From: Plazaster borealis
Taxonomy: Eukaryota > Echinodermata > Asteroidea > Forcipulatida > Labidiasteridae
DNA length: 64,000 nucleotides
Assembly (NCBI GenBank): GCA_021014325.1
Contig: CM037472.1
Span: 37,100,234 to 37,164,233, forward strand
Direction: 5' to 3'
Positions 10,888-28,016 of the stretch are shown here, piece after piece. The translations under genes and the position numbers were made by a program. The notes under the pieces were generated by a model. That model made no database searches, was not told the origin of the DNA, and worked only from the letters and a program-made list of their open reading frames with translations. Within the stretch, counting starts at the first letter, position 1. The number at the start of each line of letters is the position of its first letter.

Positions 10888-11157
10888 AGTAGTAGGAACA
10901 ATGGGGGTTCTGGACCACCTTGCTTGGGGGTATATACAAATAGAGCACATGGGGTTTGCTCCCAGCTTTATTGATAGGGCTCGCCCCGCTCTCTTAGCGG
11001 GCTGCTGGTTCTAGACCACTTTTGGGTTGGGGTATATATACAAATAGAGCACATGGGGTTCTACTAAATTTTCGTATACGAAAATTAGGTTTTAATAGGG
11101 CTCGCCCCGCTCTCTTGGCGGGCACGACCCACAGCCAGCAACTCCCAACCTTAACGC
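10888..11157 (+). repeat. Polinton left terminal inverted repeat
   Basis: Matches 25946-26214 in reverse complement over about 270 bp. Internally it is a diverged tandem repeat: a TATATACAAATAGAGCACATGGG block at about 10930 and 11033, and a GGGCTCGCCCCGCTCTCTT block at about 10977 and 11099, each pair about 100 bp apart. It also contains the palindrome AATTTTCGTATACGAAAATT at about 11068-11087. The TATATA-containing blocks look promoter-like. Confidence 0.92.
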
Positions 11158-11205
11158 CTCATTTGGTATATACAATTAGACATATATACCGCACGTGTAT
11201 ACACG

Positions 11206-11406
11206 ATGGAGTGTGATAAGTGCCACCGATTTTTTAAGAGGTACTACAACCTGAAGAGACACCTGGAGAACCGTAAGACACCTTGCTTACAAGAACCCCG
11301 GCAATACATATGTGTGGATTGTGGTGGGGAGCTGAGCTGCAGCTTCTCCTTGTGGAGGCACAAAAAGATTTGCCCGGCACAGCGCAGAACAAAGGCCGTG
11401 ATATAA
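11206..11406 (+). CDS. Small two-finger zinc-binding protein of the Polinton
   Basis: 66 aa, intact. Two Cys/His modules are visible: residues 3-27 (CDKC, then H19 and C27) and residues 36-56 (CVDCGG, then H52 and C56). Both follow the C-x2-C...H...C pattern of compact C2H2/C2HC fingers. It is the first gene inside the left TIR and starts 49 bp after the repeat ends, just downstream of TATATA-like sequence at about 11187. A segment around its start codon (ACACGATGGAGTGT) recurs inverted next to the right TIR near 25910. Likely nuclear and nucleic-acid binding, perhaps an early regulator of the element; that role is inference. No specific family was recognised. Confidence 0.65.
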   Translation: MECDKCHRFFKRYYNLKRHLENRKTPCLQEPRQYICVDCGGELSCSFSLWRHKKICPAQRRTKAVI

Positions 11407-11413
11407 CTTTCGT

Positions 11414-11821
11414 CTACAAAAGTTGAACACGAGCTAAGAGCTGTGACAACACCAACGAAAACTGTTGTTTAGCTTTTTTTTCTTGAGATAAGTACCTATG
11501 TCTTATTTTATCTCGGCCACAGTTTCGACATAGCTGTATTTCACTCTGAACCCCAGTACCACAAGATTTACAGGGTATTGAAATCTTTCTGCCTTTACGA
11601 ATCTTTACTAAGTGGTACTTACAATATTTACCGCAGCAGCTCCTATTACAGAGATCAACTTCACCAACTTTAACCCAAGCACAAACATTGTGTCCTTTCA
11701 TTTCGCAGATTGAATATCTCAGGTATGCATTTATGTCTAAATGGTTTTTTATCATTAGGGGAACCCCCAATTTATTGCGCAATATGCATGGGAAATTCCC
11801 TAAGTTTTGTAAAATGAACAC
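11414..11821 (-). CDS. Cysteine-rich zinc-ribbon-like Polinton protein
   Basis: 135 aa, uninterrupted, convergent with the small zinc-finger gene just upstream of it on the map. Cysteines cluster in pairs: CNRSCCGKYC near residues 57-66, CKSC at about 83-86 and CRNC at about 98-101, with K/R-rich linkers, consistent with one or two structural zinc ribbons. The first 40 residues are not Cys-rich. A palindrome (AACTTTCGTCTACAAAAGTT, about 11405-11424) overlaps its 3' end and separates it from the neighbouring gene. Function unknown; it could be a DNA- or RNA-binding accessory protein. Its start codon is uncertain. Confidence 0.5.
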   Translation of the reverse strand: MFILQNLGNFPCILRNKLGVPLMIKNHLDINAYLRYSICEMKGHNVCAWVKVGEVDLCNRSCCGKYCKYHLVKIRKGRKISIPCKSCGTGVQSEIQLCRNCGRDKIRHRYLSQEKKAKQQFSLVLSQLLARVQLL

Positions 11822-11943
11822 TTCAATTAGAGATATGTGTGTTGTAGGTTATGCTATCACCAGCAAACCTCATGCCCTCTACTGTTGGGTTTTGTGTGTT
11901 AATGACTCTCTATTAGAGAAATACGTCGTAGCTTATACTATAA

Positions 11944-14900
11944 ATGACGAGTACTTCAAAAACGTTTAGAACGGTACAAGACTACCAAAATGAGATTCTA
12001 GAGCAGTTTGAATATAAAGAGACGGATGAGCTAGTCTTTAGGCAGACCCCACGGGTGATCGGGAAATATCTGCGGGGTTGGCAGATGGTTGTGCCCAAAG
12101 GGCATCTCCTTAGCGCAGACCCCAGAGCCTTTCTGGACGACGTGCGCTCTCAGATTTACCAAAAACTTGAGGAAGAGCTTAAAGCTTTTAACGGTATTAA
12201 GTTTCAGCTGGCTCTCAAGCTTCAACTTCGGAAAGACAACCCTGATGAGAGTGAAGAATACACTGATCCCGTGCTCCGCCACAAACAAGAGTCTGTTTTG
12301 CAGGCTAACGATATTAATGATGCACTAGACAGGGCCTTTCCCCGCATCCAGGAGACGCTTGAAAAATTTACTCAAAGAGGCTCGGGGTGGACGGTTGACC
12401 ACGTAGAGATGCTGTGGCTTGACATTGCTCGGTACCAGCCCTTGAGAGGCGGCTCATACATTCCACTACCCGCAGCGGTGAAAAGCAAGAAGGCGGTCAT
12501 CAACGTGAAGAACAATGATGATCACTGCCTGAGATGGTCCTTACGGTCTGCTCTCTTCCCCGCCAGAGCCCACACGGATAGGCCTTCCCAATATCCCACT
12601 GATGATGGCCTAGACTTCACGGGGATCGAGGCTCCTACTCCCTACTCTCAGATCCTGAAGGTTGAAAAACAAAACAACCTAGCTATCAACATATTTGGCT
12701 GGGATAAGGGTGTTATCGTTCACGGGCTAAGCAAAAGCCCATGGACATGCCCAGGATTAACCTCTTGCTGATCGAGAAGGCAGGCAAGTTTCACTACACC
12801 TGGGTCAAAACCTAAACCGTCTTCTCTACCAAGAAAACAAGCACCGGGAGCGTACGCACTTTTGTGAGAGATGTCTCCATGGGTACTGAGAGAAGACCTC
12901 CTAGAAGCTCACAAGCCTGAATGTTGTGGGATCGGTCAGACGGCGGTGAGGGTAGAGATGCCAGAAGAGGGAAAAAATAAGCTGACCTTTCAAAACCACC
13001 ACAAGCAGTTTCCCGCCCCTTTCATCATCTACGCCGACTTTGAGGCTCTAACTACAAAGGTAGAGGGGCCCGAGCTGGACCCCACGAAGAGCAACACTCG
13101 GAAGACGCAGCACCACGAGACTTGTGGCTATTGCTATGTAGTCGTTCGCTGCGATGGACGGACAAAAACACCTGTAGAATACCGTGGACACGACGCGGCG
13201 GAGCACTTCTTAAAAGCGATCCAGTATGAGGAGCGAAAGATCAAGGAGGTGCTAGCCAACCCTAAAACAATGAAGATGACCGCCAATGACCGGCGAGCCT
13301 TTAAGGCAGCCACCACCTGCCACGTGTGTGAGAAGCCACTTGAGGGAGATACTGTCCGCGACCACTGTCATATCACTGGAAAATTCAGAGGTGCTGCACA
13401 CAACGCTTGCAACTTGAAGCTGCGCCTGAGCCCTAAAACCACAACCATACCTGTGGTCTTCCACAATTTGCGGGGCTACGATTCTCACCTCCTGATGCAG
13501 GCTATTTCCAAGGTAGAGGGTAAGATTTCTTGCATCCCGAACAACACCGAGAAATACATTAGCTTCTCCCTCGGTCAGCTCCGATTTATCGACAGCGTCC
13601 AGTTCTTGCCGTCCTCTCTTGACGAGTTAGTAGCAGCCAACCTGCCGAGGCTTTCCAAATAACGGGCCAGTACGAGCCATGTAAAGAAAGGCGCAATCTT
13701 TTGTTGCGCAAGGGCGTCTACCCGTACGAGTACATGGACTCTTGGGAAAGGTTTGCAGAGCCAGGTCTCCCTCCGAAGGAAGCCTTCTACAGCAAGCTGA
13801 AAGACGAGTACATTAGCGAGGCCGACTACGTTCATGCACAAAAGGTGTGGGAGACCTTTAGATGCCACACCATGGGAGACTACCACGACCTCTACAACCG
13901 CACAGATGTGCTCCTTTTGGCAGATGTCTTCGAGACTTTCCGGAAGACCTGCATGCGGCAGTACGGCTTGGACCCCGCACATTACTACACCAGTCCTGGC
14001 CTCTCTTGGGACGCGTTGCTCAAAAGACGGGTGTAGAACTCAAACTGCTCACAGACTATGACCAGCACCTTTTCATCGAGAAGGGGATGCGAGGTGGTAT
14101 CTCCATGGTATCTAAGCGCTTTGCGAGAGCTAACAACCCTTTGGCCTCCGAGCCGAACAGGTACATTTCTTACCTGGATGCTAACAACCTATATGGGTGG
14201 GCAATGAGCCAGTCGCTGCCTACAGGCGGCTTTGAGTGGGTGGAGGAGCTGTTGTCTACAAAAGTTTTAACGGAGCATCCGGCAGACAGCCCAGAGGGCT
14301 ACATCTTGGAGGTAGACTTAGAGTACCCTGTAGAGCTCCACGACGCACACAACGCCTATCCGTTAGCGCCAGAGCGCATGGTCGTTCAGAGAGAGTGGAT
14401 GTCCGAGTATCAGCACAACCTAATCTTTTGCAAGCAAAAGATTATTTCTACAGAAAAGTTTTCAGGCAAAAGATTAGGTTCAACAGAGGTTGAAAAGCTG
14501 GTACCCAATCTCCGTGATAAAGAACGATATGTGCTACACTATCGCAACCTACAGCTGTACCTCTCTCTCGGCATGCGCTTGAAGAAGATCCACCGGGCTC
14601 TTCGCTTTGAGCAGAGCCCTTGGATGGAACCCTACATCCGGATGAACACGGAGCACCGGAAGGAGGCAACCAGCGACTTCGAAAAGAACCTCTACAAACT
14701 CATGAACAATAGTGTATTTGGAAAAACGATGGAGAACCTACGCAAGCGGGTCGACGTTAAGCTGGTGCGCAGTGATGAAGAAGATAGGCTAAGGAAACTT
14801 ATTGCCAGCCCGGCCTTTGCTCGGGCAAACATCTTTGATGACAACCTCGCGGCGATCCAGGTTCATAAGAGCCGCCTGGTACTCAACCGGCCCGCCTACG

Positions 14901-15470
14901 TGGGTATGAGCATACTCGACCTTTCGAAGCACCTTATGTACGACTTCTACTATAATCAGATAAAGGCTCGGTATGGTGATCGGTGTCAGCTCCTTTACAC
15001 AGACACAGACTCTCTCCTCCTTGATATCCAAACCGAGGATGTGTACAAAGACATAGCTGAAGACCAGAACCTCTACGACACATCTGACTACCCCAAAGAG
15101 CACTACCTCCACAACACGGTAAACAAGAAGGTATTGGGAAAGATGAAGGACGAGTGCGCCGGGCGCCCCATCGCCGAGTATGTGGGGCTGCGGCCTAAGA
15201 TGTACTCTATCTTCGAGGCTGGCGGGAATAACATCAAAAGCCAAAGGTGTGAAAAAGTCTGTTGTGAAGAAACAAATTCGACATGAGCAGTATAAAGAGG
15301 CTCTATCACAAAAAGACCTTCCGCCACGGGATGGATGTGCTGCGTTCTGAGAGACATAGAATTTACGGTCAGCGTCTGAACAAGGTATCACTCTCCCCTT
15401 GGACACAAAGAGGTGGATAGCTGAAGACGGTGTCACCACACTAGCCTATGGGCACAAAGATATTATGCCT
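11944..15470 (+). pseudogene. POLB: Polinton protein-primed family-B DNA polymerase, frame-broken
   Basis: Replicates the element by protein priming in intact relatives. The first frame opens at the ATG at 11944. Landmarks in order: exonuclease motif I YADFEAL (about 13030); an endonuclease-VII-like zinc insertion with CHVC, HCH and NACN (13318-13410), typical of Polinton PolB; NLRGYDSH (about 13470); exonuclease-III-like RTDVLLLADVF (about 13900); palm motif A LDANNLYG (about 14175); motif B KLMNNSVFGKT (about 14695); motif C YTDTDS (about 14998). The frame changes near 12.75, 12.8-12.9, 13.66, 14.02, 15.23 and 15.40 kb, so no full-length product is possible. A palindrome cluster at 14427-14475 is read through inside the coding region. 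All motif residues listed are present, so decay is recent or partial. Confidence 0.93.
14427..14475 (+). repeat. Palindromic repeat pair inside PolB coding sequence
   Basis: AATCTTTTGCAAGCAAAAGA is followed by TCTACAGAAAAGTTTTC and then GGCAAAAGATTAG. These are the same units found in the element's intergenic regions, here read in frame between polymerase motifs A and B. A half unit (GTCTACAAAAGTTTTAAC) also lies at about 14256. Confidence 0.75.
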
Positions 15471-15558
15471 AATCTTTGCCTGCAAAGATTATCTTTTGCC
15501 TGCATAAAAACTAATCTTTTGCCTGCAAAGATTATCTTTGCTTGCAAAGATTAGTTTA
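15458..15558. repeat. Palindromic repeat cluster between PolB and integrase
   Basis: Four or more copies of the type AATCTTTTGCCTGCAAAGATT are packed into about 100 bp, some truncated. They sit exactly in the convergent gap between the polymerase 3' end (+) and the integrase 3' end (-), where a bidirectional terminator would be expected. That role is inference. Confidence 0.8.
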
Positions 15559-15563
15559 GTTTA

Positions 15564-16582
15564 TCAACGAGATTGTTTGAGCAAAAGTTTAACAGGTGGC
15601 ACCTGGGTGTTGGGAGGCACCACAAGTAGCTCTTCTCGTACAAACCCACGAGCTGGTACCCCACGATCTTTCATAAGATAATAAAGAACAGGCTCTCCGG
15701 GTTTAGTGACTGAACGCCCAAGCCGGTGCACCCGGAGGGACCATACTGGGTCAGTTGCGCGACGACGCCCACCTTCTAGCTCACCTGGCTGGTAGAGGTA
15801 CCGAACGCCCACGCCCGAGGGGAGCTTTTGCTCGTTGAGACCAACAGGGCGGTCTGCAATGGTAGAGGGCTTTGTTTTACCGATTTTGCCTTGATGGCTT
15901 CTGAGGGCTTTTTTCCGTCAATCTGGTAACCTCTGTGTTCAGAGCTAAGACAACGGCGGGAAGTCGTGCTACCCACTCAGTTGACCTCTCATCATCTGGG
16001 AGACGCAGCTCTACCGCATACTGATGCCCAAAGAGCTTTTCTGCTAGAGTTCGGTTGAATCTTTCCACGATGCCCTGCGCTCGATGCAAATCTTTTTCAC
16101 CCCGTCGGACTTTGACACCATGTTTCTCCAGAGTTTGGGATACGGAGCCCATAAACTCACGCCCAGGGTCAACCTGCAGCACCTTCGGCCACTTTAAAGG
16201 TCCCCGCTTGTAAATGCGGGACAAAGCAGTAGCCACCTCGGTGGATTCCTTTGAAGTCAGTGGTTCAGCTTCTTTGTAGCGGCTGGCAACATCAACCACA
16301 GTCAGGGCGTATTTGTAAATCTTTCTGGCCCCTGGGCAGGCGATCGTGTGGAAGAAACAGTAGGTCAGCTTGGTGGACTTCATTAGGCACTGAAATATCA
16401 AATTTTGGGCGAGGCACATGGCGAGGGGCTGGGAGATATATCTGCCATATAGCTTGTCTCTTGAGCCAATCTTTACTCACATCTTGAGTGACTTTTGCAG
16501 CCTCGGCTAGTTTTTGTATGGCCGCAAGTCCCTTCCAGTATCCTTGGGGGCTGTAGTACAATGCAGACAGTTTAGTATCCAT
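15564..16582 (-). pseudogene. INT: Polinton RVE-type integrase, frame-broken
   Basis: Retroviral-like DDE integrase responsible for insertion of Polintons. The frame opens with MDTKLSALYYSPQGYWKG at 16582, the usual Polinton integrase N-terminus. The first catalytic Asp is in HQADLL, the second in QVDPGREF and the Glu in IVERFNRTL, with 34 residues visible between the second Asp and the Glu (35 is typical). The reading frame shifts near 16.33 kb, between the first Asp and the rest of the core, and again near 15.9 kb before a C-terminal segment ending at 15564. All three acidic residues survive but not in one frame. It lies at the downstream end of the minus-strand block, tail-to-tail with the polymerase. 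Confidence 0.9.
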
Positions 16583-16587
16583 ATAAG

Positions 16588-16815
16588 TTTACGCCTGCAA
16601 AGTCTAACTAAACTTTTCTGAAGAAAGTTTTTTTACAATCAAAAGATTATCTGTAGAAAAAATCTTTTGCCTGCAAAGATTAGTTTGTGATTGCAAAAAT
16701 AACTAAACTAAACCTAATCAAACTTTTCTACAGAAAAGTTTTCAAGCAAAGATAATCTTTGCAGGCAAAAGATTAGTTTACTTAACAATCCAAACTTTCG
16801 TCTACGAAAGTTTAT
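16588..16815. repeat. Palindromic repeat cluster 5' of the integrase
   Basis: About 230 bp made largely of palindromic units: AAACTTTTCTGAAGAAAGTTT, AATCTTTTGCCTGCAAAGATT, AAACTTTTCTACAGAAAAGT, ATCTTTGCAGGCAAAAGAT and AACTTTCGTCTACGAAAGTT. It separates the integrase start from the next minus-strand gene and overlaps that gene's last codons. Confidence 0.82.
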
Positions 16816-17248
16816 AGGCTGCGAAGGAAGTAACTCCAAGCCCCATGATAACGAAAGCAATTTCGCGATCACGTTGCTCTGGGGACGGCAAGTAGAAATC
16901 TGAGAGTTTGGGTTTTGGTTCTTCTAGCGTGGGGGCCATTGAATCACTGCCAAACTTTTCTGTAGAAAAGTTTATAAGATTGTACTGGCGAATAGCTTCA
17001 TCAACATTGCGGAAAGTGTGCACGGCATGTCCTTGGCGGCGAAGCTCTTCATTAATCCAGTCTAGGCGTTCGGCCCTCTTGCGTGACCATTCAGACTGCG
17101 CAGCTTGAAGTTGTTCTACAGCCTTGTCATGTCGTTTTCGCTCTTCATCGGCACCTGGATCACGCATCATCGAGAACAGAAAATTTGACCCAGAGAACGC
17201 AAGTGCGTTCACGACCGCTCCGCCAACAAGCATTACAATAGAAGCCAT
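16802..17248 (-). CDS. Polinton coiled-coil protein with terminal membrane segments
   Basis: 148 aa from MASIVMLVGG; an upstream in-frame ATG at 17287 would add 13 residues encoded by a palindrome (TFVYKSL), so I prefer the internal start. Residues 1-20 are hydrophobic, a charged E/R/K/Q-rich helix follows (about 30-75), and the C-terminus (AFVIMGLGVTSFAAYKLS) is a second hydrophobic segment. The sequence looks like a widely conserved uncharacterised Polinton ORF. A palindrome unit at 16950-16975 is read in frame as NFSTEKF. Intact. Possible virion membrane or scaffold role is inference only. Confidence 0.6.
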   Translation of the reverse strand: MASIVMLVGGAVVNALAFSGSNFLFSMMRDPGADEERKRHDKAVEQLQAAQSEWSRKRAERLDWINEELRRQGHAVHTFRNVDEAIRQYNLINFSTEKFGSDSMAPTLEEPKPKLSDFYLPSPEQRDREIAFVIMGLGVTSFAAYKLS

Positions 17249-17249
17249 C

Positions 17250-17345
17250 AAACTTAAACTTTTGTAGACAAAAGTTTTTGTAGACAAAAGATTAGTTTAA
17301 CTTATATTTGTATAATCTTTTGTATTCAAAAGAGAAAACTTATAC
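17250..17345. repeat. Palindromic repeats between small membrane-protein genes
   Basis: AAACTTTTGTAGACAAAAGT is followed directly by a second TTTTGTAGACAAAAGA copy, then AACTTATATTTGTATAA and ATCTTTTGTATTCAAAAG. The first copy overlaps the possible upstream start of the gene ending at 16802. Confidence 0.8.
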
Positions 17346-17354
17346 ATCTTTACT

Positions 17355-17588
17355 TTAATATGTCTGCAGGGAGTATCCCTGCTTGATCAGCATGTCTTTA
17401 GTGGCCATAGCTAGGCCAACATCTAGTATGACCATGCCAACATCATACGGCGCAAAGTCTAACTTTGGCGTAACACCTTTTATGATTTTTTTACCAAGAG
17501 TAGCGTATCCCACGGCAAGTCCACTTACTACGGCGGAGTGGTACACCAAATTAGCAAGCTGTTTACCATCAGTACTGGGGGTAGTCAT
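17355..17588 (-). CDS. Small Polinton membrane protein
   Basis: 77 aa, intact. Two hydrophobic stretches are visible: about 14-30 (VYHSAVVSGLAVGYATLG) and about 49-63 (VGMVILDVGLAMATK), separated by a short basic and acidic linker. No catalytic motif. It is part of the minus-strand run of small genes between ATPase and integrase and is followed by palindromes at both ends. The likely destination is a membrane; function unknown. Confidence 0.55.
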   Translation of the reverse strand: MTTPSTDGKQLANLVYHSAVVSGLAVGYATLGKKIIKGVTPKLDFAPYDVGMVILDVGLAMATKDMLIKQGYSLQTY

Positions 17589-17612
17589 TTTTGTTATGCA
17601 AGTAGGAGATTA

Positions 17613-18116
17613 TTATTGCATATAATGAGGATTAGTTTGTTTGTCTAATATGTTTGTCTTTGATTTTTGAGATACATTTGGTAATTGTTTTGCAGGCGTA
17701 TACGAAAACTTAGCATATACCACAGCTCCAACAGCTATAACAGCCCCTGCAAGGAGCAAACTTTTGTTTACATAATCTTTTGCAGGCAAAAGATTAGTTT
17801 CTGATTGCGATGAGATTTCACTTTTATGTTCACGGTCTTTTGTAGATGAAGGATTAAGATTATCTTCAGACTTGAGACTCTGTTTGGCCTTTCGCAGCTG
17901 CTCTTTCAGCGCTTCTTGTTTTGCTTTTCTAGCTGCTGCACCTTTGCGGCCAGCCTCAACTTTTTGTGGATCTTTATTAGTTAAAACTTTTGCTGGCAAA
18001 AGTTTAGTCACTCTCTTGACTTTTAACTGCGTCGATGTCGTCTCTGGGTCTTGCGCTGCTGTCATCTCCAGAGCTTGTGCTGCTTCTGTCGATGTCGTTT
18101 CCAAGTTTTCTGTCAT
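17613..18116 (-). CDS. Polinton protein with basic coiled coil and one membrane segment
   Basis: 167 aa, intact. Thr/Glu-rich N-terminus, a strongly basic GRKGAAARKAKQE helix (about 75-100), then a single TM (LLLAGAVIAVGAVVYAKF, about 120-137) and a polar tail. The peptides LLPAKVL and NLLPAKDYVNKSL are direct translations of palindrome units at 17986-18008 and 17758-17800, so the repeats have inserted in frame here at least twice. Its 5' end overlaps the next upstream gene by about 113 bp in a different frame. Function unknown. Confidence 0.55.
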   Translation of the reverse strand: MTENLETTSTEAAQALEMTAAQDPETTSTQLKVKRVTKLLPAKVLTNKDPQKVEAGRKGAAARKAKQEALKEQLRKAKQSLKSEDNLNPSSTKDREHKSEISSQSETNLLPAKDYVNKSLLLAGAVIAVGAVVYAKFSYTPAKQLPNVSQKSKTNILDKQTNPHYMQ

Positions 18117-18456
18117 CTAAACTTTCGTGTACGAAAGTTTTACTTATACTCGTATAAGTTTTGTCTTTAAATTGACAGTGCTTAGCAGTTGTCATCGCTG
18201 CTGTAAGCGGGGCTAAGTACATACCATAGCGATAATACAGCTCGCAGCAGGCTGTCGTCAGCGCATGTCCGACAAAGGGGTCCTCCTCGAGGTCTATGAC
18301 GAGCTGAGGCTTATTTTCGGGTGGAATTGGTAGAAATGTGCTAGCCGCTAGTGCATACATCTGCAGCGCAGACGCCCTGAGAGTTTTTGTCATTGAGGCC
18401 CCTAGTCGTGCCTCATAGCGGCTATAGTGCTTAGAAATCTCGTCATCACTCATCAC
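18004..18456 (-). CDS. Uncharacterised Polinton protein with palindrome-encoded linker
   Basis: 150 aa, intact; two adjacent Met codons make the start ambiguous by one residue. The N-terminal 100 residues look globular, with a mildly hydrophobic stretch (FVGHALTTACCELYYRYGMY). The C-terminal 50 are Ser/Asp-rich and disordered-looking, and begin with KTFVHESLDDRK, which translates the palindrome at 18116-18140. That palindrome thus lies at the gene-gene overlap with 17613-18116. No recognised domain. Confidence 0.5.
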   Translation of the reverse strand: MMSDDEISKHYSRYEARLGASMTKTLRASALQMYALAASTFLPIPPENKPQLVIDLEEDPFVGHALTTACCELYYRYGMYLAPLTAAMTTAKHCQFKDKTYTSISKTFVHESLDDRKLGNDIDRSSTSSGDDSSARPRDDIDAVKSQESD

Positions 18457-18485
18457 ATCAAGTTGTGCAAGGGTTAGTCGGGTTC

Positions 18486-18713
18486 CTATGTATTTTTAGC
18501 TGTGCCGCCAGCCACAATTGCCGCCAGCCGGGTCCGTTTTTGTTCTTGCAAACGATCTAAACTTTTGTAATCTTTTGCTGGCAAATCTTTTGTAGACGAG
18601 GTGCAGCTCAAACTTTTGTCTACAAAAGTTTTGTTTAGCGTCGAGACGGTGGTATCGGTGCTTTCATCGGGAACCTCTTGCAACAATTGGTTGATCAAAT
18701 CATCACAATCCAT
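18486..18713 (-). CDS. Small acidic Polinton protein containing palindrome-derived peptides
   Basis: 75 aa from MDCDDLINQLL; an upstream ATG adds 12 residues overlapping a palindrome. More than a third of the protein is repeat-derived: NKTFVDKSL comes from the palindrome at 18610-18632 and STKDLPAKDYKSL from those at 18557-18600. The rest is an acidic N-terminus and a short basic C-terminus. Being mostly repeat translation, it may not be functional. Confidence 0.4.
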   Translation of the reverse strand: MDCDDLINQLLQEVPDESTDTTVSTLNKTFVDKSLSCTSSTKDLPAKDYKSLDRLQEQKRTRLAAIVAGGTAKNT

Positions 18714-18760
18714 AATCTTCTGTGAGCAAAAGATTACTTTTGAGATCAAACTTATACTCT

Positions 18761-18859
18761 TTATAAGTTTATGCGCATGAGTCTAACATACTTGACAAAC
18801 ATCACAAGAACTACCGCCAGATGTATAGTTTGTATGGCTAGCTGTGTTTGCTCCCACAT
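18761..18859 (-). CDS. 32-aa single-pass membrane micro-ORF
   Basis: Starts at the ATG 18859-18857 (MWEQTQLAIQ), has a hydrophobic core (TIHLAVVLVMFVKYV) and ends with a basic tail; its stop codon lies inside a CTTATAC-type palindrome. It fills the otherwise empty gap between the ATPase and the next small gene. Tiny TM proteins are common in Polinton and virus genomes, but no homolog can be named here. Confidence 0.4.
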   Translation of the reverse strand: MWEQTQLAIQTIHLAVVLVMFVKYVRLMRINL

Positions 18860-18886
18860 AGAACTTTAGTTTAGCAAGCTATTAAG

Positions 18887-19500
18887 CTATGTTAACAACT
18901 GATAAGCAACCGGCTGAGCAGTCTTTAGTATAAGCTTAGCGTGTTTAGCTTTAGATAGCTGCTGTCTAAGCGCATCTCGCTCCTCTCTCGTCGGGACAAC
19001 GTTGTTTTCTCGCAGGCAATCTTCAAAAGAGTCCCTGTCCTTGCAGTGGAAGAGCCCTATCCACTTAGTCTGCTCGCGGAGATCTTTAAGAACCGAGTTA
19101 TACTTTTGCGTCAAAACCCACACAGATTGAGAGGCGTGGCGCCCCGAGAACGCAAGCTCAGACAGCATGTCTTTCTTTTGGTCAGAGCTTTACTAGCTGA
19201 GCAGTCGTCGATGATGTACAATGTCGGCTCGCCAGCAAAAATCGAGTAAAAGCTCGCAACCACTTTTGAAGCTGATCGCCAGGGTCGACGATATAGACCT
19301 CTGGGTCTGTCCACACCCAGGATCGCTCGTGGTACGTTTTGTTCCAACGAATTGTGGGGCAGAGTATAACGATGTGCGAAAATTCGCCGCAGTAGTGATC
19401 TTCGAGAAGGTTTAAGATAAAGACTGTTTTCCCACAGCCAGTCTGGCCACAGATGATGGCCGAGTGGGGTAAAAACTTATCCTCGTATAAGTTTTTACTT
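18887..19500 (-). pseudogene. ATP: Polinton A32/FtsK-like genome-packaging ATPase, frame-broken
   Basis: P-loop ATPase that packages DNA into virions in intact relatives. Walker A GQTGCGKT is near 19430, Walker B LYIIDDC near 19210 in a second frame, and a downstream WVLTQKYNSVLKDLR segment with a sensor-like T/Q in a third frame ending at 18887. Frame changes lie near 19.26 and 19.17 kb. The N-terminus runs into the palindrome cluster at 19.47-19.58 kb (read as KTFVHESL), so the start codon is not decidable. It lies between the capsid candidate and a run of small genes on the same strand. Confidence 0.88.
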
Positions 19501-19582
19501 TTGTCTAAACTTTCGTGTACGAAAGTTTTACTTTGAACTTTCGTTGACGAAAACAATCTTTTGCCTGCAAAAGATAAGTTTG
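19465..19582. repeat. Palindromic repeat cluster between ATPase and capsid candidate
   Basis: It includes AACTTATCCTCGTATAAGTT, ACTTTCGTGTACGAAAGT, AACTTTCGTTGACGAAA and ATCTTTTGCCTGCAAAAGAT: all three unit types side by side within 120 bp. Read on the minus strand, they encode the N-terminus of the ATPase frame. Confidence 0.85.
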
Positions 19583-19584
19583 GT

Positions 19585-20890
19585 TTAGTAGAGCGCACTG
19601 ATATATCGACCATTTTCGATGTTGAGCTGAGCATCCATGATAACATACAAATACATGTTCAATGTGCCCGCCGTTTCTGCCTTTTTGGTGATCTGGACTG
19701 TGACCCTCACTTGCATTTTCTATGCGCCTGCCGCTGCCGTGCAGTGAGTCATCATCGTTGCTTCTCAAGTCCAGCCATAGGCCGTACTTTGTTGTCAAAT
19801 ACTCTCCTACCGTTACATCAGCTAATGCTAAGTCTTTGGTGACCATTGCAGACGTGGGGTGGCGCTTGGTTGAAGGGCTGCTAGCGAAGTACTTTCGAAC
19901 TTCATCCCACTGTTGGTACCCGCGCATACCCTGGGCATACAACTGGTTTGGCTTCCCCTCGACTATGACCTCAACTTTTTCGATCTTGGGGTTATAGAAC
20001 GATTCTGTATTTCGGTTAAACGCGGTCGCCGCTCCAGCATCCTCGAAGAGCATGAGTATTCCCTTAAAGCTTCGAGCTGGAATATTAAGATTGACGTTCC
20101 ACAGCGTATCACTCTTGTTGAGGGTGACCTTTCGGTGGCGCAAAATGCGGTCATACAAGATGGCAACTCGCGCAGTATACTGGTTGCGAATCATTCGGGC
20201 TAAGTTTGGCTCGCTCATAATTTCAAACTCGAGAGAGATGTTGTCGATGACGTAGCTAGCATCTGTATCACCTGTTGCCATTATAACGCGGCTGTAGTCA
20301 TTAAAGGTAAGCTCGTACTCCAATCGGTCACCAAGGCCTGACTGGAAGAACGGCATGTGGCTCTCCAACAGTTCAAAGTCTAGTGGAATGCTAAATCTGT
20401 TGCTGTATGCATCTGCAACAGCCTTGTCTTGCGCCGTAGAACTATCACCATCTCCGGCGCCCACCCTCAGTTTAAGCATGTTAGCGTCTTCCGCCACATC
20501 AATACCCTGGTAGACCTGAGACCGGCGCTCTCCCAACGTTTTCCAAAGGTCGGTGTAGCAGCCGATAACATCGCTGTCATCTATAGACATGACCTCATTA
20601 CCACTGATCCTGATTGTCTTTTTCTTCACAACGGCTTGGCCAAGGTTTTGAACCACTGTTCGATTGTCGTCGGTCGAGGTGAGGGCGATGGTAAATGCGA
20701 GGCGGGCTGTTCCAGGAACAATCACATCCTGGGCGCCAAGGTTGGGAAAGCGGACCAAGAGCTGCTGATTTTGGTCGATAGTGGAGGGGTTGTTGGTTAC
20801 AACCACGCTCTGCCGTATGCCTTTGATCCCGAGTGGATCCCGCAGGCTTCTAAGAGGATTCAGTTTGCGTCCGTACTTTGACGATGCCAT
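19585..20890 (-). pseudogene. Polinton capsid-type protein (major capsid candidate), C-terminal frameshift
   Basis: An uninterrupted frame of about 400 residues from MASSKYGRKLNPLRSLRDP at 20890, then a break near 19.7 kb; another frame carries the expected ending to a stop at 19585. Features: VPGTARLAFTIAL, GNEVMSIDDSDV, CYTDLWKTLGERRSQVYQGI, RFSIPLDFELLESHMPFFQS, NQLYAQGMRGYQQWDE. This matches a family found in many invertebrate Polintons (often labelled F54H12.2-like). Its beta-rich look and position beside the packaging ATPase make it my best candidate for the double-jelly-roll major capsid protein, but I cannot confirm the fold from sequence alone. Divergent with the plus-strand gene at 20968, sharing a short 77-bp promoter gap. 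Confidence 0.7.
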
Positions 20891-20967
20891 TCAAACCAAA
20901 CTTTATCTTTTGTCTATTAAACCTTGGCGAGTGTTCAATATAAGTAAAGCCAACCTTTGTATTCAAT

Positions 20968-22257
20968 ATGGCAGAAGGTGGCTTTGAAATAAATGATTTT
21001 GATGCACCCGAAAAACAACCAGAAGTCGAAGAAGAAACCAGTTTTATTTCACCTGAACCTCCTATCGGGGCACCCTTAGATGGGCTATCGCCTAATGAAT
21101 ACGGCGACCGCATCAACCAAGCGCGCGACGACATCCGTACAGACGAGTTGCGAGAACAGCGAGACCGTTTAGTAAATGCTTTCTATGAGGAGATAGGTCT
21201 AAACAATGGCCCTCAACCTACGATCATAGAATACAAACGGTTTCAGGTCGGCGAAGATGGTAAAACACTTTACTGGGTAGAAGGTGATAAAAAGGTTCGG
21301 ATGAGCGCTACTAAAGGCCCTTAAAAGTTTTTAGGATTGGGTACTATTGCCCAAAGTTTTGGCTCTGGGGGCTCCAGAGCTATTCGAGATTTTCTCAACC
21401 TGCCTGGGTACGACAGTACACTGCATCGTCATTCTCGACCTACCCTTCGCGAGTTAGAAAAGGTTGCTGATAAAGCACAAAATGCAACACAAGCAGATGG
21501 TGATGTACTAGATCAGACAGTTAATGTTTTAGATGATTTAGTTATTAGTATGTCATCTAAGCCGCCTACTGAGGAAGAAAATCTTTTGCCTATGAGAGAG
21601 ATTCTAGGGCTTGACAAAGCCCTGAAAACTTTGCGTGCCACAAAAGCGGTGCAAGAGAGCAAAGTAGTTTCTCTCCAGCAGCTAATCGAGGGGTATCGCG
21701 AAGAGCTTAAGCAACCCGGGACAACTGAGCGAGCGGACCAAATCGAACGTGAAATTACAAAAGCCGAAGATGATCTCGCAGCGGCTCGAGACAGCGTTGA
21801 TGTCCTCAACCAACAACTTCGGTCACAGTTCCGCCAAATTCGTGAGACCATATCTAGCGTTCTAGATAAAAACAAATCTCTGGCCGATCGGCTACGGACC
21901 CTGTTCCGCGAGCAGGGTGTGACCATAGCCACCATTATCACTGCACTGGGCTTTGCCATCAGCACTCTGGTTCTTGCCTTGACTGGTGGGCCAGCTGGCG
22001 GGGTTACACCGCCAACACCTCCCACGCCCCCCGCAAGTAAAGATGGGGTAAAAGAGTGGGCGAAAATACATTTGCAAGCTCTCGGGCGCCTTCTAGCCCA
22101 ATTAGCTGGAAAGGCTGCAGCCGCACTACCGGGCATCATCGGAGGCATTATATCGTGGCTCCTCAACCTCTTGAGTAAAACTGCTGGCTGGCTCGGGAAA
22201 CCTATGGGCAATAATTGTTGCCATTGGCGGTGTACTGTTAACTTTAATCTTTTATAA
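20968..22257 (+). pseudogene. Polinton coiled-coil/membrane protein split by an in-frame stop
   Basis: The frame opens at the ATG at 20968 (MAEGGFEINDFDAPE), reaches a TAA at 21322-21324, and continues in the same frame without further stops to 22257, so one nonsense change seems to divide a single gene. Layout: acidic N-terminus, long coiled coil (about 21470-21900; LQQLIEGYREELKQ, ERADQIEREITKAEDDL), then a hydrophobic TM (GVTIATIITALGFAISTLVLALTGG), a Pro/Thr linker (about 22000-22040) and an Ala/Gly-rich amphipathic stretch (AAALPGIIGGIISWLLNLL). Near 22.2 kb another frame is strongly hydrophobic, hinting at a second break before the C-terminus. It looks like a widespread uncharacterised Polinton ORF and a probable virion membrane protein. 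A palindrome half unit at about 21588 is read as NLLPM. Confidence 0.65.
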
Positions 22258-22259
22258 AT

Positions 22260-22405
22260 AATAAACTTTTGTAGACAAAAGTTTTTTGTAGACAAAAGTT
22301 TTAGCGTAGAGCGAGCCAACCGAGACCAAGAGCAACGCCACCAACAACAAGTGCAGTTCGCCCATCATAGTGCGCTAAACTTTCGTCTACGAAAGTTTGT
22401 CTTTC
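22260..22405. repeat. Palindromic repeats in the convergent gap
   Basis: Tandem AAACTTTTGTAGACAAAAGT units at 22262-22302 lie exactly between a plus-strand and a minus-strand gene end. A further AAACTTTCGTCTACGAAAGT lies at 22377-22398, inside the C-terminal coding part of the minus-strand gene. The first position suits a bidirectional termination hairpin. Confidence 0.8.
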
Positions 22406-23645
22406 ATCTACGTCGATATCAGGCTGTGCCAAACCGGTCCCATCAAACTAACTTCCGGAGTTTGAGCTAGGTGTGCTGGCCTTGCAGGAGGCCCCTCCAT
22501 ATCCTTTACAGGTAACAAATTCTCGACAACTGCATTTATACCGTTGTTAAAGCCCAAATTTTGCCCCTGCTCCGCGATCACAATCTCGTTGTTGTAGTCC
22601 TGAATAGTTCCAATCTGCAACTCCATGTTGCTGGGAGCCATATACAAACCAATTCCGAATACATAGTCAACCTTAGAGCGGGCGTATCGAAGCATGTCTT
22701 GGTAGCGTGCCACCGCACTCGGGAGATCTACAGGGCTTGAGACTGCATCCTCAACATTCGCTAAGAACTGTTTCTGGGTGTCAAATGCGGCACCGGTGCC
22801 AATAATACTCGAGCGAATCTGCGCCTGTGCGCCTAGGATAGCCCACACGTATGTTCGGATAGAGTCGTTGATTCTTTCAACCCCAGGTTGGGTAAAGCCC
22901 TCCGACTTGTCGAGAACAAATGTTGTCCATGCTTGGTCTCCTTCTGGCCCCTGACCGATGTAGTCGACGCTGAACGTGGCTGGTCTATCACCAAAGCTCA
23001 TGCGGTCTTTTCTATAGTCGTTCGACGAAACACCGAAGCTGGGGTTAAGACCCCACTAGCAACCAAATCGTTGCTCACTTCTTTAATAGAGAGCACTGAA
23101 CCTTTCCACCAATGATACGGCGTTCCAAGACCACTATTTTGGTCGATGCTCTGCCGCCAGTCGGTGTGCGGTGAGACACCAAACTCCGCGCAAATTTGCT
23201 CATATACCCTCTGGTTGTATGGGGTATCAAAGGCATCCCAAGTGTCATCCTGTGGGAGTGGCACCTGCATCCCTTCAAGAATCCTTCGCACCTGGTAGTA
23301 TACGTGAAAGCGGTAGACTGATCGCACCATCGGGACTTTAGAGCTAAGATGGTCTTCTGCAGAGACACCGCAACCTGTGGTAGCACACCACACTGCAAAG
23401 TTAATCTTATTTTGCCAAAATTTCATCGGGTTTGAGCTCCACGTGTCCACTACATCATCACTTTGTACGTGTGGCAGCCTATACCGCTCCGCCGACAATA
23501 TATCCGGAAAGACGGTGTCAAAGCTCGCCGCCCCCGTATCAACCTGTATTGTAACATTTTGCAATACGAGTTGAGATTTTGCGGAGTATACCCCACCTGT
23601 TTGGTAAGATGCATCTGTGTTAAAGCTATAAGCTTGGTTAGACAT
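22301..23645 (-). pseudogene. Polinton conserved structural-protein candidate, frame-broken
   Basis: The frame opens at 23645 (MSNQAYSFNTDASYQ) and runs to about 23.0 kb. A second frame continues to 22408, and a third reaches 22301 with a hydrophobic C-terminal segment preceded by a palindrome-encoded TFVDESL. Features: SAKSQLVLQNVTIQVD, FWQNKINFAVWCATTGCGVS, FGVSPHTDWRQ, DYIGQGPEGDQAWTTF, and a long helical region with VDYVFGIGLYMAP. Total length would be about 440 aa. It resembles a recurrent Polinton gene, probably virion-associated; I cannot assign capsid versus accessory role. Breaks lie near 23.0 and 22.44 kb. Confidence 0.6.
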
Positions 23646-23654
23646 AACTGCACA

Positions 23655-23712
23655 AACTTTGCTTGCAAAGTTTAAGTTATACTCGTATAAGTTCAAAAGA
23701 TTATTTGCAAAG
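23655..23712. repeat. Palindromic repeats in a divergent promoter gap
   Basis: AAACTTTGCTTGCAAAGTTT is followed by AGTTATACTCGTATAAGTT and a partial CAAAAGATTATTTGCAAAG. They fill the 73-bp space between the divergent starts at 23645 (-) and 23719 (+), so any promoter for these genes must include or abut the palindromes. Confidence 0.8.
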
Positions 23713-23718
23713 TTCGCT

Positions 23719-24408
23719 ATGTTTGTTACACAAACCAATATTCAAAAGAGAGAAGCGCCGCTCCTCCAACCCGCAATTAACAATGTAAATGGTAAACTCT
23801 GTGTTGCCCTAAGAGAGTTGCATTTTAAATAAACTAACACTCTTGATGTTGACTCTACTGTTGATCTTAAGTTTGACAGTAATAATAATCTTAGTTATAC
23901 CTCGATTAAAGTTGTTCGAGGAATGTACACCTTTGAAGATATACAACAGTTTTTCAAAGCAAATATACCCCAAATAGTACTCCAAATGAACAAAACAACG
24001 GGGTTTGTCAGTATCAATGTCAGGAGTTTTTCTATGTTTTTTAAATTTGATGATGCAATGTGTTCACTATTGGGCATTCTCTCTAATCTTTTTGACGGTC
24101 ATTGGTTCCAAGGAAGAGTAGATGGAATTAGACCCTCAAGGTTCCATACCCCTAACCTGGTTTCTATACACCTCAATCAACTTGATGCGGCTTTAAATAC
24201 TATTGATGGCGCCCCCTCGTCGCTGCTAACCATAACCCCGTTCAAATCTGAAAGCAGTGTAAACGTTAACCTTGCTTACCCTATGTACAAAAAACTTAAA
24301 ACAGGACACATATATAAACTAAACTTTCTCGTGTTAGATGAATATGGTGAAGATATGCGTGACAATCCTATCTCTATGACTGCAGTACTTGAGATTAAGC
24401 CTGTCTAG
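23719..24408 (+). pseudogene. Minor-capsid-like Polinton protein, copy 1 (in-frame stop)
   Basis: The ATG at 23719 opens MFVTQTNIQ; a TAA at 23830-23832 interrupts, and the same frame then stays open to 24408. Length would be about 229 aa. It matches the following gene block by block: MYTFEDIQQFF versus LYTFEYLQNLF, VSIHLNQLDAALN versus VYIHLDQLSTTSN, and DGAPSSLLTITP versus DGAPSTLLAITP. Genes of this length and pattern sit near capsid genes in invertebrate Polintons and may encode the single-jelly-roll minor capsid (penton) protein; that assignment is an inference from context and general resemblance. Paralog of 24487-25150. Confidence 0.6.
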
Positions 24409-24411
24409 TAG

Positions 24412-24460
24412 ATGCGTCTGTGTTGAAGCTATAAGCTTTGTTTGGTATAACTGCATTAAC
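24412..24460 (+). repeat. Relic of duplicated gene-start sequence
   Basis: GATGCGTCTGTGTTGAAGCT plus the next 25 bases match 23608-23652 (GATGCATCTGTGTTAAAGCT...), which is the 5' coding end of the minus-strand gene. The relic shows that the unit copied in tandem was about 806 bp and began inside that gene, carrying the minor-capsid-like gene with it. Confidence 0.75.
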
Positions 24461-24484
24461 AATCTTTCGTAGACAAAAGATTAG
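24461..24484. repeat. Palindromic unit upstream of minor-capsid-like copy 2
   Basis: AATCTTTCGTAGACAAAAGATTAG lies immediately before the ATG at 24487. It occupies the place held by a longer palindrome cluster upstream of copy 1, and is a hybrid of two unit types (CTTTCGT left arm, CAAAAGATT right arm). Confidence 0.75.
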
Positions 24485-24486
24485 TT

Positions 24487-25150
24487 ATGTTTGTGACACT
24501 AACCGATATTCAAAATGAAGAAGCGTCGCATCTCCAGACTGTAATCGATAATACAGATGGCAAGCTCTATGCTGCCCTCAGAGGTTTGCATTATGAGGTT
24601 AGCCATCGAAATATTGGGCATTCAGCTGGAATTTTGTGGCGTTCTAACTTGGATGATAAACCTCGAAAGATTATGATCCCTGCTGGATTATATACCTTTG
24701 AATACCTACAAAATCTGTTCACAAAAGAGCTGCCCCAAGTATCGGTCGAGATAGATAAAGCAACAAATCTAGTCATGTTCAGCATTCCAACGGGCGGAGC
24801 CTTAAAAATACCCTCTGATATACGCCGCCTGTTGGGTATCAGCGATAAAGGTTGGATTGATGGGGAATACGAGGGAGACAGACCCTCTAACTTCGATATT
24901 CACAAGTGGGTATACATACACCTCGATCAACTTTCTACAACCTCCAACATCGTTGATGGCGCTCCTTCAACACTACTAGCCATAACCCCAGCCGCACCCA
25001 AAGGTGTTATAAACATTAATCCTATTTGTCCTATGTACAAATTGAAGTTGGGCACATACATCAATTGAACCTTCGCGCGTTAGATAAACATAACCTGTTG
25101 CTACAAAACCATAGCAAACCCATAACTGTTGTGCTTGAAATTCGAGAAAA
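24487..25150 (+). pseudogene. Minor-capsid-like Polinton protein, copy 2 (C-terminal frameshift)
   Basis: The open frame from ATG 24487 to a stop at 25066-25068 gives 193 aa beginning MFVTLTDIQNEEASHLQTVIDN. The last 30 residues expected from copy 1 appear in another frame ending near 25155 (VVLEIRE, compare VLEIKPV of copy 1). The rest is uninterrupted and better preserved than copy 1. Predicted features are short beta-like segments without membrane or coiled-coil stretches, in keeping with a jelly-roll protein. Same candidate role as copy 1: minor capsid/penton. The 3' end abuts or overlaps the next gene start at 25150. Confidence 0.6.
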
Positions 25151-25786
25151 TGCCTAAGATACCAACAGCTCCTACCATCGAAACAACTGAGCGATTGTAT
25201 CCCGTTCTTGAGCCTGAGGACAACAACACAGGCTCTAATTATCGCCTGACTGAAATCCGCAACCTCGAACGCAAACTTGAAAAAGAGATAGAAGACAGAA
25301 GTAAGCTGTACAAAAGTACCGTAGATCTATCAATATCGTTGATGGTATTGACACAGTGTTGATTCTATCATGCCTTGGAATGGGAGCTACTGGTGTAGGA
25401 TTGCTCTCCACAATTATAGCTGCGCCTATTGTCATTGCACTTGAAGCAGCTGCAGGTGTTTGTGGTCTTGCCGGTATTGCCGGTAAGTTCGTCTCTCGGC
25501 GGCTCCTTGTAAAAGCTAAAAACACGATGAGATTCGTGTTCTCGCTCTATCTAAGCTCAACAGCGTTTCAGATGTGATCTCACAAGCGCTACAAGATGGG
25601 CACATCTCCCCTGAAGAGTTCAAGCTCGTAATAAACGAAATAAATAAATATCGACAAATAAAAGCTGATATTCAGAAAAAGCCGCAAAGTATACGCAGCT
25701 CAAACCAACGAGGTAGCCAAAACGAGCTGATGGCCGAAGCCCGAGCTTCAATAATGAAAGAGCTTGCGGCAACGACACTGAAATAA
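25150..25786 (+). pseudogene. Polinton two-helix membrane protein, frame-broken
   Basis: The frame opens MPKIPTAPTIETTERLYP at 25150, with a charged coiled coil (EIRNLERKLEKEIEDR). A shift near 25.34 kb leads to a long hydrophobic region (LGMGATGVGLLSTIIAAPIVIALEAAAGVCGLAGIAG), and another shift near 25.54 kb leads to a polar C-terminus (ISQALQDGHISPEEFKLVINEINKY). This coiled coil, paired-TM, SxALxDGxIS..EF order fits a Polinton ORF seen in many invertebrates; function unknown. It is the last gene before the right TIR. Confidence 0.65.
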
Positions 25787-25894
25787 AGTGCGGTTGCTTT
25801 GCCAGTTTTAAATTCAGCCGTGGTAGCAAACTTAACGAACCTCCACCCAGTTATTCACAAACGTAAACGTCTACAGTTGGGTTCACTCATTGTG

Positions 25895-25945
25895 TATACC
25901 GTGCTACACTCCATCGTGTTCAACTTTCGTAGACGAAAGTTGAAG
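25895..25945. repeat. TIR-adjacent palindrome and inverted echo of the first gene's start
   Basis: AACTTTCGTAGACGAAAGTT (about 25922-25941) directly abuts the right TIR. Just outside it (about 25906-25919), ACACTCCATCGTGT is the reverse complement of the start region of the zinc-finger gene at the other end, so TIR homology formerly extended further inward. Confidence 0.75.
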
Positions 25946-26214
25946 CGTTAAGGTTGAAAGTCGCTGGCTGTGGGTCGTGCCCGCCAAGAGAGCGGGGCGA
26001 GCCCTATTAAAACCTAATTTTCGTATACGAAAATTTAGTAGAACCCCATGTGCTCTATTTGTATATATACCCCAACCCAAAAGTGGTCTAGAACCAGCAG
26101 CCCGCTAAGAGAGCGGGGCGAGCCCTATCAATAAAGCTGGGAGCAAACCCCATGTGCTCTATTTGTATATACCCCCAAGCAAGGTGGTCCAGAACCCCCA
26201 TTGTTCCTACTACT
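25946..26214 (-). repeat. Polinton right terminal inverted repeat
   Basis: Reverse complement of 10888-11157 with few differences (for example GCTGGCTGTGGGTCGTGCCC versus its mirror at about 11120-11139). It has the same internal tandem structure and the same CGTATACG-centred palindrome (about 26018-26037), and ends CCTACTACT at 26214 next to CCACC. Confidence 0.92.
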
Positions 26215-27764: not shown

Positions 27765-27982
27765 CGGCTACACCCCTATGTTCCGACACCCCTATGTTCC
27801 GACAACCCTGGTGTATTTTCCTATTCCTAACCCTAACCCTAACCCTAACCCTAACCCTAACCCTATGTAAAGCCGTAAATCATGAGGGGGTTGTCGGAAC
27901 ATAGGGGTATCGGAATATAGGGGTGTCGGAATATAGAGCATTCACCCACGAAGGCTACACCCCTATGTTCCGACACCCGAAT
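27765..27982. repeat. Interstitial telomeric repeat flanked by inverted CCCCTATGTTCCGACA units
   Basis: (CCCTAA)n runs from 27826 to 27865, about 6.5 units. On the left are ACACCCCTATGTTCCGACA units at about 27768-27805; on the right their reverse complements (TGTCGGAACATAGGGGT type) at about 27890-27940, then one more forward unit at 27955-27977. The telomere-type array is therefore inside a larger inverted arrangement. Confidence 0.85.
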
Positions 27983-28016
27983 TGTGTCTTCATTGTGGTT
28001 TGGTCTGGGAATCTCT

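Follow-up and report, generated by a model that had tools for sequence, protein, structure and literature searches.

What are the short palindromes that lie between and inside the genes of a virus-like transposon in the sea star Plazaster borealis, and by what process did they come to differ between its copies? The question is raised by a window of 64,000 nucleotides, the whole stretch analysed here (C18:37100234-37164233; assembly of 560.6 Mb in 717 contigs). In the names used below, w with a number is a window position, L with a number a fetched locus and C with a number an assembly contig. The window contains a Polinton (Maverick) element at 10888..26213. An alignment of its terminal inverted repeats (TIRs) placed the start at 10888 and the end at 26213, and a CCACC on either side represents a 5-bp target duplication; the target duplication of Polintons is usually 6 bp. 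The element was assigned to Polintons because open reading frames (ORFs) for hallmark proteins were found, namely PolB (PF03175, 13862..15286, + strand, with in-frame palindrome units inside), for which protein priming is predicted from the family, an rve integrase (PF00665, 15877..16419, - strand) and a packaging ATPase of the Pox_A32 type (PF04665, 19182..19646, - strand).

For a 601-bp PolB piece, 112 candidate places were found in the assembly, and the 40 that were scored were 99–100% identical. Exact places at other sites of the element numbered 75 (w17977), 78 (w17870) and 113 (w18887, tandem repeats included). On these counts, the Polinton is present in at least about 75 copies. The evidence from the copies tilts modestly towards the view that palindromic units of ~22 bp, in the types TTGC, TCGT, TTGT, TTCT, ATAC and ATAT, multiply within one Polinton lineage during its replication, with template switching at hairpins and recombination as the probable mechanism, which we infer.

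Design and abundance of the palindromic units

About 30 dyads of a fixed design, with arms of ~10 nt and a centre of 2 nt, were identified in the element. Perfect dyads with 9-nt arms and a 2-nt centre occurred 18 times in the 15.0 kb of the element, as compared with a single case in ~49 kb of flanks and a mean of 0.05 in the shuffled element (20 first-order shuffles). An initial annotation of the window had listed such palindromes, including a relative in the TIRs. They were found where it had placed them, and AATTTTCGTATACGAAAATT is present at both ends, at 11067-11086 in the left TIR (10888..11157, + strand) and at 26016-26035 in the right TIR (25945..26213, - strand; both inner borders are approximate). 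The half-arm [AT]A[AT]CTTT[TC]G[CT] had 43 occurrences in the element as against 2 in the flanks. A gap of 10 nt between AWCTT and AAGWT was found in 18 cases, whereas each other gap from 4 to 21 nt was represented by 0–4 cases, and this concentration of the spacing indicates a fixed unit length of ~22 bp. By their inner tetrads, the arms of the window belong to the types TTGC, TCGT, TTGT, TTCT and ATAC, and ATAT was found additionally in L027 and L039.

Genome-wide pattern counts covered two arm-type patterns. AACTTTYGTNNACRAAAGTT had 758 places and its reversed control 4, and AATCTTTTGCNNGCAAAAGATT had 271 places and its reversed control 0. Among the first 50 sites listed for each pattern, 48 of AACTTTYGTNNACRAAAGTT and all 50 of AATCTTTTGCNNGCAAAAGATT were located in Polintons, the sites being assigned to copies by coordinate, that is, by fetched loci or by the distance from matches of the PolB piece, w17977, w17870 or w18887. 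The two AACTTTYGTNNACRAAAGTT sites outside Polintons (C1:21725047 and C4:16348902) are compatible with chance, as the control rate predicts ~0.8 in the stretch listed. In the window flanks, one 10-nt-arm dyad with other letters was detected at position 390. The initial annotation, which saw no such palindromes in host DNA, was nearly right, this dyad and the 2 of 100 listed genome sites being the exceptions, and the comparison of motif density that it proposed (98 of 100 listed sites in Polintons; half-arms as counted above) pointed clearly to the element.

The two arms of a unit vary together. Eighteen sites were picked regardless of their inner letters. Pairing was found at 67 of their 72 inner positions (the maximum of 20,000 shuffles was 65), and the inner tetrads are fully complementary in 14 cases (shuffled mean 4.1, maximum 13 in 20,000), while the outer A/T letters match between the arms in all 18. 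The arms had been described as kept and the central bases as variable; the arms do pair, yet their letters vary too, in register.

Differences between the Polinton copies

Six copies were compared in 15 pairs. Outside the palindrome zones, the identity was 99.24–99.76% over ~5 kb (12–39 single-nucleotide polymorphisms, SNPs), with 1–4 gaps of ≥7 nt, alignment ends included. The zones themselves, 1071 of the 7387 alignment columns, contained 0–8 insertions or deletions of ≥7 nt in the same pairs.

Filled and empty states were counted genome-wide at three sites. Site w17977 (17977..18005), located within ORF 17613-18116 (- strand), carries in the window a TTGC unit that represents a 27-nt in-frame gain; 19 of the 75 matched places were filled, 55 were empty and 1 was in another state. 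Site w17870 (17870..17871) is empty in the window. Among its 78 matched places, 52 were empty, 20 held a TCGT unit (one without the centre), 2 held a TTGC unit, 2 had a 9-nt state and 2 were unrelated. At w18887 (18887..18888), also empty in the window, a 22-nt TTGT unit between duplicated TA was detected in 14 of the 100 places listed among 113. The comparison of orthologous gaps suggested by the initial annotation revealed, at these sites, single units that were cleanly present or absent. In some copies, the w18887 region forms an 85-bp tandem repeat of variable copy number beside the ATPase gene (e.g., C6:23937573-23937765 and C21:3391519-3391733), and in the repeats on C21 and C7 the unit occurs in one repeat alone. 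An assembly artefact was rejected as the source of the alleles, identical ones being found in 14–20 places and in frame at coding sites.

Units of different types may occupy one site. At w17256, within the TTGT units upstream of the ATG at 17248 (17256..17333), an ATAT unit replaces the first two in L027, and the other copies have TTGT units. The TTGC and ATAC units between divergent genes (23654..23712) are followed at w23700 by a TTCT unit in L031, L034 and L035; there is none in the window and L033, and L032, which was not among the matches at w23700, has the same gap in a separate comparison. In the right TIR of L051 (C2:14903928), the centre of the TIR-border palindrome is CT, not AG, which corresponds to a flip of the unit. 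The TTGC-type array at the convergent junction of the PolB and integrase genes (15455..15560) was present in 15 alleles in 34 rows. Since the window and L057 are one locus, these rows represent 33 distinct copies, just as 38 rows represent 37 copies at the PolB site and 35 represent 34 at w15576.

Units were also found within units. The PolB site (14421..14480), as read from the sequence and the comparison of copies, holds in the PolB frame of the window a TTGC unit, a TTCT remnant and a TTGC remnant. L042 has one TTGC unit here; L027, L029 and L040 have a TTCT unit inside its left arm; and in the window and the remaining copies read, an additional TTGC unit replaces the left part. The nesting events would have followed one another in this order. 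A TTCT unit within the TTTT/AAAA of a TTGC arm was observed in four places, namely PolB, w15475 (L061), w15540 (many copies) and w17780 (L039).

For two sites ~70 bp apart, all four combinations of filled and empty states were present among the 33 distinct copies. All four were also obtained, by reading of the site lists, for w17977/w17870, w17977/w18887 and w17870/w18887, the double-filled class of w17977/w17870 being a single copy (C22:20718xxx) with a one-letter variant. The presence of every allele combination at these site pairs shows that the copies recombine; the repeated entry of identical units into one site is a less likely alternative.

Junctions were read in 11 comparisons of 10 cases, a small set that is partly unpolarised. 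A 5-bp duplication (TTAGT, w17977) and a 2-bp duplication (TA, w18887) were each seen once, 0 bp was found three times and a loss of bases six times, with 1–14 bases of the empty site missing and some of the losses enlarged by nearby SNPs. A constant target duplication, as in miniature inverted-repeat transposable elements (MITEs), was rejected on account of these variable junctions, and the AG/ACT flanking duplication typical of GC clusters was absent from the junctions of the 10 cases. The earlier proposal of a miniature mobile element living in a virus-transposon agrees with the clean presence and absence of single units, whereas the junctions lend no support to strict mobility, with an enzyme and a constant duplication.

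Structural alleles differed by multiples of 3 (9, 12, 18, 24, 27 and 30) at six of six coding sites and at none of six other sites, the allele lengths being entered by hand and the sites being those examined rather than a random sample. The count excludes one- and two-base homopolymer changes (e.g., those of L027 and L030 in ORF 17613-18116 and those of L026, L028 and L030 in the ATPase, which differ by 1–2 bases besides 27 nt), a 13-nt loss in L029 at w14254 and the loss of a centre at C10:9898132. It is uncertain whether w15540 and w22283 are coding (ORFs traverse both); w22283 includes one 15-nt step, and an 18-nt change of L061 is in the same array. L039 and L040 agree with the in-frame pattern in ORF 17613-18116 and in the ATPase. 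As structural alleles at coding sites stay in frame, the units seem to have entered the genes while the genes were in use. One-base homopolymer differences are common between Polinton copies, and the PolB reading frame of the window copy is split into several ORFs at 12771-14036.

The peptide of the PolB-borne unit was found in none of the 120 best PolB homologs, P0053 having a different insertion there, and the peptide LLPAKVLT of ORF 17613-18116 in none of 6 homologs. ATAC, TCGT, TCGT-like and TTGC units (19469..19575) lie where the N-terminus of the packaging ATPase is encoded. The protein has 66 residues before the P-loop (55 from the next Met); the median of 109 homologs is 22, and three of these homologs come close to or surpass the Polinton protein (43, 48 and 87) with other sequence. 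No unit-typical peptide was detected in 246 homologs except for one chance match of three residues.

Proposed multiplication of the units and rival explanations

For Polintons, the expected mode of replication is protein-primed and strand-displacing. On a displaced single strand left by such a PolB, the units would fold into hairpins, and the polymerase or the repair machinery could switch template between the arms, as well as between units sharing CTTT/AAAG and AAAC/GTTT. A growing end that paired with another unit via CTTT/AAAC would copy a whole dyad elsewhere, in many cases into an older unit, and an arm re-copied from its partner would stay perfect while the letters drift. Hairpin-templated copying raises the identity between arms, as excerpts from the literature on quasipalindrome mutation describe (PMC7202029, PMC3820800). 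The features observed, namely perfect arms with drifting letters, exchange of types, nesting, a flip of the centre and no constant duplication, are those that template switching predicts, and it would require neither a constant target duplication nor a dedicated enzyme.

Several points weigh against multiplication by template switching. The switching step is one that we infer and did not observe directly, and only the two divergent copies L039 and L042 give gain and loss a direction. Site w15576 (15576..15577) has no unit in the window and is longer by 25 nt, with a TCGT unit, in other copies. It looks like a loss in the window, and since the divergent L042 shows a third state, the window and L040 seem to be deletions. 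Identical insertions across copies are inherited; the independent gains seen are few, about ten. Differences at sites with little unit homology (w18887, w17977 and w16955) are explained less easily by template switching than by a nuclease. As a speculation, a nuclease such as the endonuclease VII-like domain of the PolB region could open sites unrelated to the units. In its fixed length and exact 2-nt centre, the unit resembles the footprint or the substrate of a protein. Finally, point changes within integrated copies of the PolB site hit one arm only and are uncompensated (L026/L028/L072/L073/L069, L070, L062, L065/L079, L068, L075 and L040). One possible two-arm change, T/A runs of 4/4, 4/3 and 3/3 at w15470, is in a homopolymer and could be a sequencing error. 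Because the arms covary between units yet single-arm changes in integrated units stay uncompensated, it seems that pairing originates in the making or copying of a unit and decays after integration; the uncompensated changes argue against selection on pairing in resident copies. The test of compensatory changes proposed in the initial annotation gave a divided answer, as pairing is kept from unit to unit, also where alternative units occupy one site, whereas integrated point changes are one-armed.

A more far-reaching form of the same idea is that a self-propagating palindrome of 22 bp parasitises the virus-like transposon through the strand-displacement replication of its carrier, that hairpin copying keeps the arms identical as the letters drift to new types, and that new in-frame peptides are thereby supplied to the carrier proteins. 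This form is tentative, and we would sooner doubt than adopt it. To our knowledge, 22 bp is smaller than any known transposable element.

The rival that survives best, though an unlikely one, takes the units as binding sites (operators, or sites for replication or packaging) for at least one dimeric protein of the element, their gain and loss being the turnover of redundant sites under selection. The fixed 2-nt centre, the length of ~22 bp and the perfect dyad symmetry would suit such sites, and several units precede an ATG by a few bases (17248, 18116 and 24487) or are located between divergent genes. The inner arm letters, in contrast, vary widely and covary (TTGC, TCGT, TTGT, TTCT and ATAC), unlike the sites of one protein, many units lie in coding sequence and differ between near-identical copies, and the loci of 15 relatives held no unit of the family.

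It is more doubtful still that the units are MITE-like, non-autonomous mini-transposons moved in trans by the rve integrase, the endonuclease VII-like domain or a host Tc1-like enzyme. Their clean presence and absence, the doubled TA at w18887 and TTAGT at w17977, and the PF02945 endonuclease VII domain in the PolB region are in line with such movement, enzymes of the endonuclease VII type being able to cut branched or cruciform DNA. The varying junctions described above nevertheless include no constant duplication, 98 of the 100 listed genome sites are inside Polintons rather than in host DNA, and 20–22 bp is, as far as we know, far below the length of known transposons.

An ordinary mutational by-product, in which quasipalindrome correction and slippage of A/T-rich repeats act without net proliferation, is highly improbable. 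It could account for the change in copy number of the 15–17-nt tandem array at w22283 and for the homopolymer states at w15470, but not readily for whole units at sites empty in sister copies, two arm types at one site or 1029 places for two patterns as opposed to 4 in the controls. The reading of the units as RNA hairpins that end transcripts, after the mimivirus hairpin rule, is hardly credible and was rejected as the sole explanation: many units do lie in gene gaps, one of them convergent, but others are in frame inside PolB, the ATPase and ORF 17613-18116 or just upstream of ATGs and so are not restricted to transcript 3' ends, the stems are short and AT-rich, and units turn over between copies, all of which disfavours the terminators that the initial annotation had considered.

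The window, distant relatives and known palindromes

The remaining units of the window were mapped, unless otherwise stated, from the sequence and the comparison of copies. A TCGT/TTGT hybrid follows the zinc-finger ORF (11405..11424), where three other copies are longer by 19 nt. The gap upstream of the integrase gene contains an array of TTCT, TTGC and TCGT units (16599..16813), and ORF 16802-17248 (- strand) contains a TTCT unit (16952..16973) that is missing in the divergent L042. ORF 17613-18116 holds a TTGC unit and a replaced neighbour (17758..17796), and TCGT and ATAC units are located just upstream of its ATG at 18116 (18119..18161). TTGT/TTGC units lie within ORF 18486-18782 (- strand; 18557..18631), followed by degenerate TTGC and ATAC units (18713..18770). 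TTGT units at 22263..22301 form, as copy comparison indicates, the 15–17-nt tandem array of variable copy number, and a TCGT unit is found at 22377..22398. A hybrid TCGT/TTGT unit, read from the sequence, stands in a paralogous gap 4 nt before the ATG at 24487 (24461..24482), and a TCGT unit with 12-nt arms marks the inner border of the right TIR (25919..25944) and is missing from the left TIR.

The region 23607-25068 comprises two tandem paralogous genes, and their paralogous upstream gaps hold different palindrome units. The PF02945 domain of the endonuclease VII type was matched at 12871-13662, and several PolB homologs carry it too. The Polinton copy in L040 (C4:254500-264499) has an insertion of ~4.7 kb near w17640. 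In the flank outside the element, ACACCCCTATGTTCCG repeats, inverted and direct, surround a short telomere-like (CCCTAA)n tract (27770-27991), and an ORF on the minus strand (36562-37623) matches the TCP-1/cpn60 chaperonin and is probably a host exon.

Few of the 120 PolB homologs listed were named, those being from sea slugs (Elysia), a nemertean, a coral and bins of Candidatus Thiodiazotropha, symbionts of lucinid clams. Polinton-like PolB genes were also met on contigs of bacterial and archaeal metagenome-assembled genomes (L001-L014), probably as eukaryotic contamination. In 15 distant Polinton loci (14 genome contigs and 1 from IMG/VR), 0–2 half-arms each were counted, and the five dyads with 8-nt arms and a 2-nt centre found there had other letters and included no unit of the family; these relatives are 36–65% identical in PolB and say little about close kin. 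Scans of IMG/VR with three arm types gave 0, 0 and 2 contigs, the latter (L086 and L087) having 1 and 2 such dyads, respectively, and no half-arm of the family. The ORFs of L087 resemble those of filamentous phage, and the hairpins of both contigs are probably unrelated to the Polinton units. The two dyads of L087 (302-321 and 2416-2435) are AACTTTTCTnnAGAAAAGTT, and the contig also has two inverted TTTTTTGCAAAAAA-type stems, perhaps terminators.

The palindromic elements of Rickettsia are bacterial, ~100–150 bp long and inserted in frame into protein genes; in-frame palindromes in genes are found here too, and relatedness is not claimed. A title-level literature search gave no account of such units in Polintons, by which their absence from print is not established. 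By analogy, the units work like mitochondrial mobile hairpins, the closest known kind, but they are not members of it. As in that kind, a short palindrome is dispersed in many copies, and single units are present or absent at orthologous sites, but the units reside in Polinton copies on contigs of 22–27 Mb and not in an organelle.

The comparisons that follow draw on parts of the cited accounts. The GC42 clusters of yeast mitochondrial DNA (mtDNA) are short palindromic repeats with presence and absence in close genomes, merging at a homologous site, shuffling and conserved stems (PMC4478555), and presence/absence, merging and shuffling are shared by the Polinton units. GC42 clusters are, however, mitochondrial, 42 nt long, GC-rich, mostly intergenic and flanked by AG/ACT repeats (PMC4478555), whereas the Polinton units have about half that length (~22 nt), are AT-rich, lack a constant flank and are often in frame inside genes. 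The hairpin elements of sponge mtDNA (RHE) and the double-hairpin elements of Allomyces (DHE) are dispersed and unevenly distributed between relatives; those of Allomyces lack flanking duplications, and the repeats are mostly intergenic with some in genes (PMC2800124). They differ in being organellar, and the portion of that account considered here mentions no interchangeable, co-changing arm types, and the word 'compensatory' occurs 0 times in its full text (PMC2800124). In Volvox, related classes of short palindromes occur in organelle and nuclear DNA and were deemed selfish, with the mechanism left open, but they are tied to intergenic and intronic DNA rather than to one virus-like element (PMC2670323). 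The hairpins of Mimiviridae similarly lie between genes of a large DNA virus, but they are termination signals at transcript ends (PMC4402537), whereas the Polinton units are also inside genes and turn over.

How palindromes proliferate in organelle genomes has long been a puzzle, and the mechanism is still open. The many near-identical, recombining Polinton copies of one genome provide a base-resolution record of palindrome presence, absence, nesting and change of type. The fixed 22-bp design, the co-changing arms and the in-frame filter make template switching, a nuclease and a binding site directly testable against each other. The units look like very small selfish DNA inside a virus-like element, and they show a route by which such an element may gain new protein segments.

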